In this document: positions 47,619 to 51,985 of the stretch, in pieces
Layout of the letters: the number at the start of each line of letters is the position of its first letter
How positions within the stretch are numbered: the stretch's first letter is position 1
Source: a virus
IMG/VR virus record: IMGVR_UViG_3300033183_000354
Span: 1-64,000 of that record
Direction: 5' to 3' (one strand)
DNA: 64,000 nt
Made by a program: the position numbers and the translations under genes
The notes under the pieces: model-generated
Seen by the model: only the letters and a program-made list of their open reading frames with translations
What the model was told of the DNA's origin: nothing
The model's database searches: none

Positions 47619-48122
47619 TTACTTTGCAATACACACTGCTTCGATATTTGCAGTGTATGTTCCACCAGGGAAAGCCTTATCGCCACCATAAGAGGCAGTC
47701 GAACTAGACTTAAACCAAGTTGATCCAGTCGCAGTCAAATCATATTGTGTTGTCTGACCAAATGTTACTTTATTTGTTTCGTATGAACCCATGTTAGTAG
47801 CATCACTTACAGCACTTACTTCAGTCGATCCAGTCCATGTGACCGTATCACTCAAAGAAGGACTTTGAGCAAATGAAGTTGGTGTAGTGATTTGAGCATA
47901 GTATGCATCAGCAAGTGTTACATCATATCTTACGATAGGCTGCACGCCGCCATCTGCAGCTGCAGTTGTAAGCGTATACGCATTTGGGTTTCCATAGACA
48001 CCAGGAGTGTCAGTAGTGATTACACAGCGGGATTGTACATTACCAGTAATTGGAACCTCTTCGGCATATACTGCTGCTGTCCCTAAACACATTACCCCGA
48101 CAAGAATTGCTTTTCTAAGCAT
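47619..48122 (-). CDS. Exported fimbrial/SCPU-like protein
   Basis: 167 aa with signal peptide MLRKAILVGVMCLGTAAVYA. The mature part begins PITGNVQSRCVITTDTPGVYG and ends GTYTANIEAVCIAK, giving a Cys pair spanning a Ser/Thr-rich beta domain, the layout of pilin-like or spore-coat-U-like domains. Next to a chaperone-like gene, so a small surface fibre or envelope structure is possible. Confidence 0.6.
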   Translation of the reverse strand: MLRKAILVGVMCLGTAAVYAEEVPITGNVQSRCVITTDTPGVYGNPNAYTLTTAAADGGVQPIVRYDVTLADAYYAQITTPTSFAQSPSLSDTVTWTGSTEVSAVSDATNMGSYETNKVTFGQTTQYDLTATGSTWFKSSSTASYGGDKAFPGGTYTANIEAVCIAK

Positions 48123-48131
48123 TTACTTCTC

Positions 48132-49028
48132 CTAATTATTATACTGCATTTCGACCATTTCTTCATGCAGTAATTGTTGCGCAAGGCCGTTCCTTAATCC
48201 TTGCTTGTTTTCATCAATTTTCTTATCAACTAAAACTAAACTGTCTTTATATTCACCACCAGGAATAGAAGTTTTTAGATAGGTGTTATCGATTATAGTC
48301 TGTACAGCTCTATTCATAGCCAGTAACCGTAAATCTTGAGAAATCAATAATGCTGCATTTGTATCTGCTAGAGCTTGCAATCGATATTCTCTCTTACGCT
48401 TTTCTTCTTCCTCTTTTTCTTCTTCATCGATCTCTTCAAGCACTTCTTCGTTTTCTTCGATCGTAACTCTTTCTTCGTTGCTGAGAGTTACATACTCATC
48501 TTGTGTTGCATCATATATCGTACTTACATCAACTTCAGGTATCACTGGAATAGGAGCTTCATATCCAGGACAGTTAGGATCAAATTGCGGATCATAACAA
48601 GGATCAACTTTATAACTATAAATCACTGTCGCATCTTCGACTGTGCCAGTGCCTTCTACTTCAATGGATCCATCACCCCATAATTCTCGAGGCAGTTGAG
48701 GAATAACTGGAACAGCTTTCCTAATTTCAATTCCACCTGGTGCACCAGACCAGTCATCTGTTTCGCGAAAGATATATCCAGTGCCATTTGCATTTTCATT
48801 CTGTACGTGCACCTTCATATCGTCTTCGGTGTTCTTATTTGGTGTATAACTATAGATCACACCATTAATATCTAATCCAGGAGGAGTTGGCAAGACATTG
48901 TCCATACTCCATGTGTGGCCACCAGCCGCAGCATTTGGTGTAGTACCAAAGTATGGCTGAATGCTATCAGAATAAGAGTAAGAGGGTAAGAAGACCACCA
49001 ATACCGTAAGTAGCAGTTTCTTTAACAT
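48132..49028 (-). CDS. Large exported protein of the minus-strand operon
   Basis: 298 aa from the ATG at 49028 (GAGGAGAAAAGAG upstream; a start at 49049 is less likely). Signal peptide MLKKLLLTVLVVFLPSYSYS. Beta-rich first half with PYFGTTPNAAAGGHTWSMDN and a Cys-containing DPCYDPQFDPNCPGYE loop. Then a very acidic Glu/Lys stretch near 195-220 and a helical C terminus (LQALADTNAALLISQDLRLLAMNRAVQTII). No family recognised. Its first 62 coding bases overlap the upstream gene. Confidence 0.65.
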   Translation of the reverse strand: MLKKLLLTVLVVFLPSYSYSDSIQPYFGTTPNAAAGGHTWSMDNVLPTPPGLDINGVIYSYTPNKNTEDDMKVHVQNENANGTGYIFRETDDWSGAPGGIEIRKAVPVIPQLPRELWGDGSIEVEGTGTVEDATVIYSYKVDPCYDPQFDPNCPGYEAPIPVIPEVDVSTIYDATQDEYVTLSNEERVTIEENEEVLEEIDEEEKEEEEKRKREYRLQALADTNAALLISQDLRLLAMNRAVQTIIDNTYLKTSIPGGEYKDSLVLVDKKIDENKQGLRNGLAQQLLHEEMVEMQYNN

Positions 49029-49506
49029 CTCTTTTCTCCTCAGCCCCAACTTTTTCTAATTGAGATTCTTTATGAGATTCCCAACCAATCTTTGCAGCTT
49101 CACCAATCTGGCCTTCATAAGGGCATGGAGTGCCAGCCATCATCATGGCATCAAACACGTTCTTATCTTGACACATAACAGAAACAGCAGCGACTTTCAT
49201 TCCCATATCGTATAGAGTCTTAGCATTCTTAAGTCTTAAGCAATTCTCTTCTGTAAATGTAGTACCAGCAGAGATACCTAAAATCTGAGTTTGTACAGCA
49301 CCAGCGACACCAATAGTACATAAATCACTGTTGCTATTAGCGCCTAGTTGTGGAGAGATAGCTGATGGAGGAGGCGACTTTACAGTAGTTTCCATCGTTC
49401 CATTTGTTGTAACCGTGCTGTTGGTTGTCGATTCAGTTACGATCGGTTCTGCAATCGCCAATGATGAAAACATAATAAAGACAGCAGCTAATGCTAGTCT
49501 TTTCAT
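48967..49506 (-). CDS. Exported, membrane-anchored protein, first gene of the minus-strand operon
   Basis: 179 aa. Signal peptide MKRLALAAVFIMFSSLAIA, a Ser/Thr/Pro-rich linker, then a conserved-looking SDLCTIGVAGAVQTQILGIS ... ENCLRLKNAKTLYDMGMKVAAVSVMCQDKNVFDAMMMAGTPCP domain with four cysteines, and a C-terminal hydrophobic helix (YGIGGLLTLLLLF). I recall similar proteins in other marine T4-like phages, function unknown. AGGAGA ribosome site; late box 22 bases upstream. The region coding for the tail helix overlaps the next gene's signal peptide. Confidence 0.7.
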   Translation of the reverse strand: MKRLALAAVFIMFSSLAIAEPIVTESTTNSTVTTNGTMETTVKSPPPSAISPQLGANSNSDLCTIGVAGAVQTQILGISAGTTFTEENCLRLKNAKTLYDMGMKVAAVSVMCQDKNVFDAMMMAGTPCPYEGQIGEAAKIGWESHKESQLEKVGAEEKRDVKETATYGIGGLLTLLLLF

Positions 49507-49606: not shown

Positions 49607-49614
49607 TATTTATA
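49607..49614 (-). promoter_or_regulatory. Second minus-strand late box
   Basis: Exact TATAAATA on the minus strand, ~100 bases upstream of the first exported-protein gene, back to back with the tmRNA promoters. Confidence 0.6.
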
Positions 49615-49616
49615 TG

Positions 49617-49645
49617 TTTACAAACACAGAAAACTGTAGTATAAT
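49617..49645 (+). promoter_or_regulatory. Sigma70-type promoter of the tmRNA
   Basis: TTTACA, 17 bp, TATAAT. Its last base is also the first base of a late box. Confidence 0.9.
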
Positions 49646-49652
49646 ATAAATA
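49645..49652 (+). promoter_or_regulatory. Late promoter box of the tmRNA
   Basis: Exact TATAAATA overlapping the -10 box by one base. Suggests tmRNA is made both early (host sigma70) and late (gp55). Confidence 0.65.
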
Positions 49653-49658
49653 CAATTG

Positions 49659-49719
49659 TAGTGATGAAGCAGACCGAAAGATAGACTGGACACGGGGGCA
49701 GTACCCGTCAGCTCCACCA
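49659..49719 (+). ncRNA. ssrA: tmRNA, acceptor piece (permuted gene, 5' part)
   Basis: Carries the 3' end of a two-piece tmRNA. T-arm stem ACGGG / CCCGT (49692-49696, 49704-49708) with loop GGCAGTA, acceptor strand CAGCTCC (49709-49715), discriminator A and encoded CCA at 49717-49719. The acceptor strand pairs with GGGGCTG at 49873-49879, seven pairs with a G-U at position 3, the identity element for alanyl-tRNA synthetase. The 5' boundary is approximate. Order acceptor piece then coding piece is that of the permuted genes of alphaproteobacteria. The T-loop lacks the usual TTC. Confidence 0.9.
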
Positions 49720-49738
49720 TAAACACACGGTGAATGAC

Positions 49739-49885
49739 ATGCGTATCAAATTAAATTCAGGCGATGAGTATGATGCACTCACAAAAGCCAAGAAATATTT
49801 TAAGTGGCGCGCAGGTCAACGCAAAAAGATCAAGCGAGGCTACAATAAAAGACTTCGCCGTGTGCTTATGATGGGGCTGAACTAG
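49739..49885 (+). CDS. Basic 48-aa protein inside the tmRNA intervening segment
   Basis: Begins MRIKLNSGDEYDALTKAKKYF and continues with a Lys/Arg-rich helix (RAGQRKKIKRGYNKRLRR), ending LMMGLN. It fills the 153-base spacer between the two tmRNA pieces and its last 13 bases are the 5' end of the coding piece, so RNase P processing of the tmRNA would cut the message. A weak GGTGA lies 5 bases before the ATG. Small basic proteins of this kind are frequent in phages; nucleic-acid binding is likely from charge. Translation is unproven. Confidence 0.55.
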   Translation: MRIKLNSGDEYDALTKAKKYFKWRAGQRKKIKRGYNKRLRRVLMMGLN

Positions 49886-50045
49886 GATCGACAGGTATTG
49901 AATAGGGAAGTGGAGCTATCCCGCGCAAGCTGGGTTAACGCAAGAACTAAGTAACTGCAAACGATAACTTTGCACCTGTAGATTACGCTATCGCAGCATA
50001 ATCTAGCGGGCCAGTCCGGAGCCTAGGAACAGAATCCGGACACTT
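49873..50045 (+). ncRNA. ssrA: tmRNA, coding piece with proteolysis tag
   Basis: Starts GGGGCTGAACTAGGATCGAC, the canonical tmRNA 5' end. The resume codon GCA is at 49957 after AAGTAACT, and the tag frame 49957-50001 reads ANDNFAPVDYAIAA then TAA, closely like alphaproteobacterial tags. The stop codon lies in helix 5, TAGATTA / TAATCTA (49979-49985, 49999-50005). A further stem GTCCGGA / TCCGGAC (50014-50020, 50035-50041) follows. The 3' boundary is approximate. With the acceptor piece it should rescue stalled ribosomes and mark proteins for ClpXP. Confidence 0.92.
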
Positions 50046-50600: not shown

Positions 50601-51096
50601 TGATAAGAAAAAGATAGTACAAAATAGAAAGTTATTGCCTTATAAATTCATTGGGAAAGTGTCTCAACAGTTTATTGAAGATTGTATTTCAGATTTAAAT
50701 CATTTAGAAGACACTACATTAAAATCAAAAAATAATAATATTGATTTCGGCGATTATTCTTTCTTAGACCATTATCATCAAAAGCATCTGAATAATATAG
50801 AATTGCCTAATATATTCAAATTATTTGGTGAAGTCTATGATTTAAGATATGGGATCCTAGACAAAGATCAATCAATTCCTCCTCATGTTGATAAGCCTGA
50901 TGGCCATCGATTCATGTGTATCATCAAAGGTAAGCATGAATATGTTACTCAAGTAGAAGAAATAAATAAAGTTGAAATGAATGAAGGTGAACTTTGGTTT
51001 ATTAATGCTAGTTTTAAGCATAAAGTAATAAACACTGGTCATCAAGATAGAATTGCTTTGTTAGGAAAATTTAATGACATCTCTCAATTATTATGA
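50578..51096 (+). CDS. 2OG/Fe(II) oxygenase, aspartyl/asparaginyl-hydroxylase-like (1)
   Basis: 172 aa cupin-type dioxygenase. Iron ligands H103 and D105 in IPPHVDKPDG and H148 in ASFKHKVIN; R158 in HQDRIALLG should bind 2-oxoglutarate. The family hydroxylates Asp/Asn or Pro residues in proteins and related small molecules. It overlaps the radical SAM gene, so the two likely act in one pathway. Substrate unknown. Confidence 0.75.
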   Translation: MKTTLSFSDKKKIVQNRKLLPYKFIGKVSQQFIEDCISDLNHLEDTTLKSKNNNIDFGDYSFLDHYHQKHLNNIELPNIFKLFGEVYDLRYGILDKDQSIPPHVDKPDGHRFMCIIKGKHEYVTQVEEINKVEMNEGELWFINASFKHKVINTGHQDRIALLGKFNDISQLL

Positions 51097-51985
51097 ATTA
51101 AATCCTCGTGATAATCATTTTACTGATGTTGTAGTTGATGTTACGCATCGATGTAATATGGCATGCAAAAACTGCTATATTCCAAATAGATCTATACCAG
51201 ATATGGACGCTGATCAAATGATCGAGGCGTTATCTCAGTTTCCTAAGAAAGTGACTGTAAGGATCATTGGTGCAGAACCAACGATGAGACAGGATTTGCC
51301 AGATCTTATTTCTCGTATACGTAAAACTGGTCATCGTATTACTTTATTGACGAATGGTCTTCGTCTCGCACGAGAAAATTATGTAAAGACATTGAAAGAT
51401 TCTGGTCTACGTAATCTATATCTATCGATGAATGGGGTGGATAATGACGATTGGTACGAAAAGATCGATGAGATGAGATGTGCTGATAAAAAAATTAAAG
51501 CCATGTTATATGCACACCAATATAAACTCCTTCGTGATATCGGTTGTATTATCGTTGATCATGTAAATCTTGATGCGCCTTCTCGTATGATCTCTCTCCT
51601 AAATAAACATGACATCGCTAACGTTACAATTCGTTTTAAAACAATTGGTCAAATTGGCAGATTTATGGGAGAAGAACATCAGATGAAAATGGACGATTTA
51701 ATTCGAGTAATGTCAGATCAATTAAATGTGTCATATGATTATATCAAGAGCTGGCAAGATCAATGGATATATCCAGAAAATAGACAGGAAAAAGATAGTT
51801 TCCTATTCCCTCTTAATCCTAAAAGTACACGTGTTTATAATGGCATATGGATTAAACTTGTTAATTGGAATAGCTATGACAAATCAACGGTGTTAAGTGA
51901 TAGTACTCGAAGAGGAAGACTGACAGAAAACTTTAAAGTAGCTCCGTTTTTTGAACACGTAACTTTAAATGAAAATGGTTATTAA
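51074..51985 (+). CDS. Radical SAM enzyme
   Basis: 303 aa. CxxxCxxC cluster motif C27-C31-C34 in VTHRCNMACKNCYIP, the GAEPT variant of the GGEP motif near 74-78, and TLLTNGLRL. The MoaA/peptide-maturase-like first half is intact; no C-terminal SPASM cysteines are seen. Translationally coupled to a 2OG oxygenase before and two bases ahead of a GNAT-like gene after. It could modify a peptide, a surface sugar or a nucleobase; in some phages radical SAM proteins belong to base-hypermodification sets. Confidence 0.85.
   Translation: MTSLNYYELNPRDNHFTDVVVDVTHRCNMACKNCYIPNRSIPDMDADQMIEALSQFPKKVTVRIIGAEPTMRQDLPDLISRIRKTGHRITLLTNGLRLARENYVKTLKDSGLRNLYLSMNGVDNDDWYEKIDEMRCADKKIKAMLYAHQYKLLRDIGCIIVDHVNLDAPSRMISLLNKHDIANVTIRFKTIGQIGRFMGEEHQMKMDDLIRVMSDQLNVSYDYIKSWQDQWIYPENRQEKDSFLFPLNPKSTRVYNGIWIKLVNWNSYDKSTVLSDSTRRGRLTENFKVAPFFEHVTLNENGY

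Follow-up and report, generated by a model that had tools for sequence, protein, structure and literature searches.

A marine-type T4-like phage carries a circularly permuted, two-piece tmRNA gene whose intervening sequence holds a small open reading frame (ORF). We think it highly probable that this is a working permuted ssrA gene and that a small phage protein gene has colonised its intervening sequence. Here we document the anatomy of the tmRNA, the nested ORF with its homology and purifying selection, its recurrent position, and the finding that this slot also houses unrelated ORFs in other phages. Our main reading is that phages repeatedly use the spacer as a cargo slot, in which small genes are transcribed together with ssrA, and we regard this slot as mainly a matter of compact genome packing rather than a dedicated switch.

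The window is a stretch of 64,000 nucleotides (nt) from a 152,719-base IMG/VR virus record (IMGVR_UViG_3300033183_000354), and all features of the locus lie on its plus strand. Positions 49613–50044 are a complete circularly permuted (two-piece) tmRNA of the alphaproteobacterial type. The Rfam model tmRNA_permuted (RF04321) matches 49658–50001 over its full length (model positions 1–213; 103.9 bits, gathering threshold 47, E = 3.5e-19), with no second match in the virus record, and alpha_tmRNA (RF01849) matches 49613–50044, also in full (positions 1–355; 96.9 bits, gathering threshold 50, E = 3.5e-25). As delimited by the RF04321 alignment and a pairing check, the acceptor piece (49658–49719) comprises the T-arm (49692–49708), the 3′ acceptor strand (49709–49715), the discriminator A and CCA (49717–49719); end positions come from models, and 49658 is the limit of the model rather than a mapped 5′ end. 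In both models, 153 nt of intervening sequence (49720–49872), expected to be removed from the mature tmRNA, separate this piece from the coding piece (49873–50045, 3′ end approximate, from the RF01849 and RF04321 alignments). The acceptor strands GGGGCUG (49873–49879) and CAGCUCC (49709–49715) form seven of seven pairs in permuted order, with G-U as pair 3. The tag frame (49957–50001, from a pairing and translation check) reads ANDNFAPVDYAIAA, with a hydrophobic C terminus ending in IAA, and its stop at 49999 is enclosed by a perfect 7-bp helix between UAGAUUA (49979–49985) and UAAUCUA (49999–50005). The initial annotation had called a complete permuted ssrA with this acceptor stem, this CCA end, a coding piece starting at 49873 and a tag stop inside a perfect helix 5, and each of these features is borne out, as is its expectation of an alpha_tmRNA match. 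ARAGORN, which it had also proposed to run, makes no tmRNA call at the locus; because the program likewise misses 79 of the 192 phage permuted tmRNAs that we located by structure, we ascribe the blank result to a weakness of the program.

The phage is T4-like, as the initial annotation had supposed: PHROG matches include tail sheath, portal, major head protein, a T4-type DNA polymerase and an SbcC-like gp46. By major capsid protein, its neighbours lie in the Kyanoviridae, with phage C48C1 closest (64.6% identity), followed by Melnitz and Mosig (about 60%). The record encodes no SmpB, so rescue would have to rely on the SmpB of the host. Thus, of the proposal that the phage has its own ribosome rescue, the phage-encoded ssrA RNA stands and self-sufficiency does not. 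The missing SmpB would also fit a tmRNA that is a non-functional relic of host origin, retained only as a landing site. We consider this extremely unlikely, because the acceptor stem (seven pairs, the third a G-U), the CCA, the open tag ending in IAA, helix 5 and the full-length model matches are all intact, and because acceptor pairs 5–7 vary in concert among phages, at loci that were partly chosen by pairing. The tag of the window is absent from the 106 bacterial permuted tmRNAs sampled among the matches listed, and the SAR11 tags sampled differ from it and are mostly shorter. Downstream of the tmRNA, 51074–51985 encodes a radical-SAM domain protein (PHROG 1802 and 13987). To its left, three genes on the minus strand (47619–49506) have orthologues, 56–83% identical, to the right of the tmRNA on the plus strand of another contig (L030, 4515–6138); by sequence comparison, this arrangement suggests a local rearrangement around the tmRNA.

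The two-piece tmRNA itself is of an already known type, and the initial annotation's impression that no permuted tmRNA had been described in a T4-like phage does not hold. A two-piece tmRNA has been published for Melnitz, a T4-like member of the Kyanoviridae that infects OM43 bacteria (MZ577097; PMC9004378, 2022), and the related T4-like Pelagibacter phages Mosig and HTVC008M match RF04321 above the cut-off. According to the same paper, two-piece forms make up 53 of 133 phage tmRNA structures, and 50 of them come from phages of marine or aquatic origin (PMC9004378). Melnitz resembles the window in its alpha-type permuted tmRNA, its similar tag (ANDNYVPVDYALAA) and the TTGACA and TATAAATA elements upstream, but its spacer measures 142 nt and contains an unrelated ORF (MFKWLSKTRL...) that is unannotated in its record. 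Mosig and HTVC008M, in contrast, have short spacers (46 and 49 nt) and no such ORF. The abstract of PMC9004378 places Melnitz ssrA under glutamine riboswitch control, whereas Rfam covariance models found no glutamine riboswitch in the window. In another contig (L140), a glutamine riboswitch aptamer (RF01739; 2150–2198, 53.6 bits) lies directly upstream of a permuted tmRNA (2321–2757) that has a spacer ORF, the riboswitch arrangement being that described for Melnitz.

The ORF in the intervening sequence, overlooked by the initial annotation, encodes a basic protein of 48 amino acids (P0001; 49739–49885). A Shine–Dalgarno (SD)-like GGTGA (49729–49733) precedes its ATG by 5 nt, an arrangement also found in relatives. 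The last 13 nt of the ORF overlap the mature coding piece, so that the expected cut site, 49872/49873, separates the first 2 nt of codon 45 from all that follows, the TAG stop (49883–49885) included. Between the window and its relatives in four loci (L002–L005), synonymous sites differ by 37–40% and nonsynonymous sites by 5–7%, giving dN/dS values of 0.10–0.13. Together with 14 relatives in the same place and many standalone relatives, these values make P0001 look like a real gene under purifying selection. A never-translated passenger, a decaying insertion at a locus where only the RNA matters, is very unlikely; some phages do have long spacers without an ORF, so spacer length alone is tolerated, but low dN/dS across about 37% synonymous divergence, the conserved SD and start, and the large excess of ORFs with SD and ATG over shuffled spacers (below) all speak against it.

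Upstream of the acceptor piece, the best of four sigma-70-like promoter hits in the region (TTTACA-17-TATAAT, 49617–49645) agrees with the consensus at 11 of 12 positions, and Melnitz and several relatives have TTGACA...TATAAAT at the corresponding position. Its −10 end is overlapped by TATAAATA (49645–49652), a putative T4-type late-promoter motif that also lies upstream of the acceptor piece in Melnitz and four further loci (L011, L021, L041 and L049). We infer from this layout how the locus would be transcribed, processed, aminoacylated and translated, and what regulatory effect the cut might have. Placed immediately in front of the acceptor piece, the single promoter would yield a precursor containing the acceptor piece, the ORF and the coding piece, so that the ORF and the tmRNA would be made as one RNA. 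As with the two-piece tmRNAs of bacteria, tRNA-processing enzymes of the host would cleave behind the CCA (49719) and at 49872/49873, and the two pieces would then pair through the acceptor stem, be charged with alanine and act with host SmpB. Ribosomes would translate the ORF from the same transcript before this processing or in competition with it. Because the last codons and the stop of P0001 lie in the coding piece, cleavage would truncate the message within codon 45 and leave it without a stop. A ribosome at the stop-less end of an mRNA is the classical tmRNA substrate.

This geometry would also suit a feedback coupled to processing, in which the RNase P cut strips the stop from the ORF, ribosomes stall and the phage tmRNA tags the product for destruction. 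By analogy with arfA, the small protein would then build up only where capacity for tmRNA processing or trans-translation runs short. In Escherichia coli, RNase III cleavage removes the stop of the arfA message, which then becomes a tmRNA substrate. The comparison is one of works-like analogy: in both cases a stop would be lost by RNA cleavage, and the geometry fits, but arfA has no shown sequence relation to P0001, is not nested in ssrA and is cut by RNase III. Besides the position of the cut within codon 45, such feedback could draw on a predicted fold of the precursor (z = −3.53), in which an 11-bp helix between 49724–49734 and 49854–49864 (CACACGGUGAA / UUCGCCGUGUG) prolongs the acceptor stem and covers the SD, whose mean probability of being unpaired is 0.01 at this locus (L082). 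Nested relatives of P0001, moreover, all read past the cut, and do so in two different frames. Even so, we judge this feedback unlikely: standalone P0001 homologues end in ordinary stops, other nested families often stop before the cut, SD burial is not general, and the conserved sequence of the coding piece supplies fixed stops, so that overlap of an ORF with it can be incidental.

Relatives of P0001 are encoded by at least 117 stretches in IMG/VR. In 14 loci (L002–L005, L011, L015, L021, L022, L030, L034, L035, L038, L041 and L049, with L030/L034 and L035/L038 being near-identical contigs) the relative is nested as in the window: the match starts 17–29 nt past CCACCA and the frame enters the coding piece, and all 14, when tested, scored above the gathering threshold for permuted tmRNA. 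No tmRNA was found near standalone homologues in the six loci tested. In a 140.9-kb phage (G002; L076), a P0001 homologue lies about 12 kb from a tmRNA with an 86-nt spacer, in which no P0001-type gene was seen; the P0001 gene is thus found both nested and standalone. A tree of the family needs two changes to account for the nested genes, but they may have a single origin. The core GDEYDALTK...W..GQ.KKIKR.YNKR.R recurs in the standalone homologues, and D9, E10, D12, L14, W23, G26, I31, K32, Y35 and R40 are invariant in the family alignment (A2). P0001, whose family has no accepted name, matches phrog_16066 (E = 1.6e-07); it has no Pfam match, and tblastn returned no relatives in cultured phages. 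Its predicted structure, a confident model (pLDDT 86), has three helices and no fold match in the PDB. The sole PDB profile match, to BM2, is weak and doubtful (E = 0.02, a basic helix) and was rejected. A further motif, GDL..HR.HT.KYEDLC, is nested in three other spacers (L202, L337 and L408) and also forms the C terminus of a standalone relative of P0001 (L072 and L073).

The position of P0001 is one instance of a wider pattern. A scan for the T-arm and acceptor pattern matched at least 120 viral and at least 118 bacterial contigs, to which a second pattern added more. Among the matches listed for the same pattern, the median spacer is 79 nt in phages versus 28.5 nt in bacteria (p = 5e-13). 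Alphaproteobacterial two-piece tmRNAs (RF01849 and RF04321) share the two-piece anatomy, the start of the tag and the acceptor features with the window, but their spacers are short, reaching at most 139 nt in the 106 bacterial examples sampled among the matches listed, and are not gene-filled. Three Saccharibacteria MAG contigs (L252, L253 and L267) match the pattern with no coding piece found downstream, possibly by chance or misbinning.

Among the matches listed, 57 non-redundant phage permuted-tmRNA spacers are at least 95 nt long. An ORF that starts in the first 50 nt and covers at least 70% of the spacer fills 38 of the 57, compared with 9.8 ± 2.7 (maximum 17) in 300 dinucleotide shuffles in which the helix ends were held fixed. 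With an SD and an ATG also present, the count is 16 of 57, compared with 0.4 (maximum 3) in the shuffles; some of the filled spacers that lack an SD may be due to chance. Read manually, the nested ORFs of the matches listed fall into some 25 unrelated families, several of which automatic clustering merges through a common tail, YDGGELGST, that is read from the tmRNA itself. For six other nested families, computable pairs give dN/dS values of 0.07–0.43, and all 19 further ORF-bearing loci checked exceed the gathering threshold for tmRNA. The helix that bounds the slot and extends the acceptor stem averages 11.3 bp, compared with 4.3 bp after shuffling. Two general regulatory features were considered and rejected. 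Selection for a non-stop geometry across families is not borne out, since of the 19 SD-bearing cases among the matches listed, 12 have their stop before the cut and 7 after it; nor is a general hiding of SDs in the folded tmRNA, since nested SDs show no lower accessibility than the remaining SDs of their contigs (p = 0.27) and burial is limited to single cases such as the window. Because stops often precede the cut elsewhere and SD burial is not general, the cargo slot is our main reading and feedback an extra.

Cargo in the removed part of a tmRNA gene has precedents. Homing endonuclease genes occur in group I introns of tmRNA genes. The tmRNA intervening sequence can also harbour a gene for tRNA-Ala, or else a repetitive element (PMC11915505). 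Those cargoes are an RNA gene, a repeat and intron endonucleases, whereas the phage spacers described here hold small protein genes of many families. The open-access literature searched contained no report of ORFs in tmRNA spacers.

Conserved protein genes thus occupy, in phage after phage, a spacer of two-piece tmRNAs that has so far been treated as waste. A gene-filled slot helps to explain why phage spacers are long and adds many unannotated small proteins to the phage repertoire. That the discarded spacer of permuted ssrA is a regulated gene slot, in which tmRNA maturation eliminates the message nested there or cuts off its stop, seems improbable to us; if true, small-protein output would be tied to the processing and use of tmRNA, providing a built-in sensor of the state of ribosome rescue during infection. 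The locus offers a natural system in which one transcript must be either message or structured RNA.
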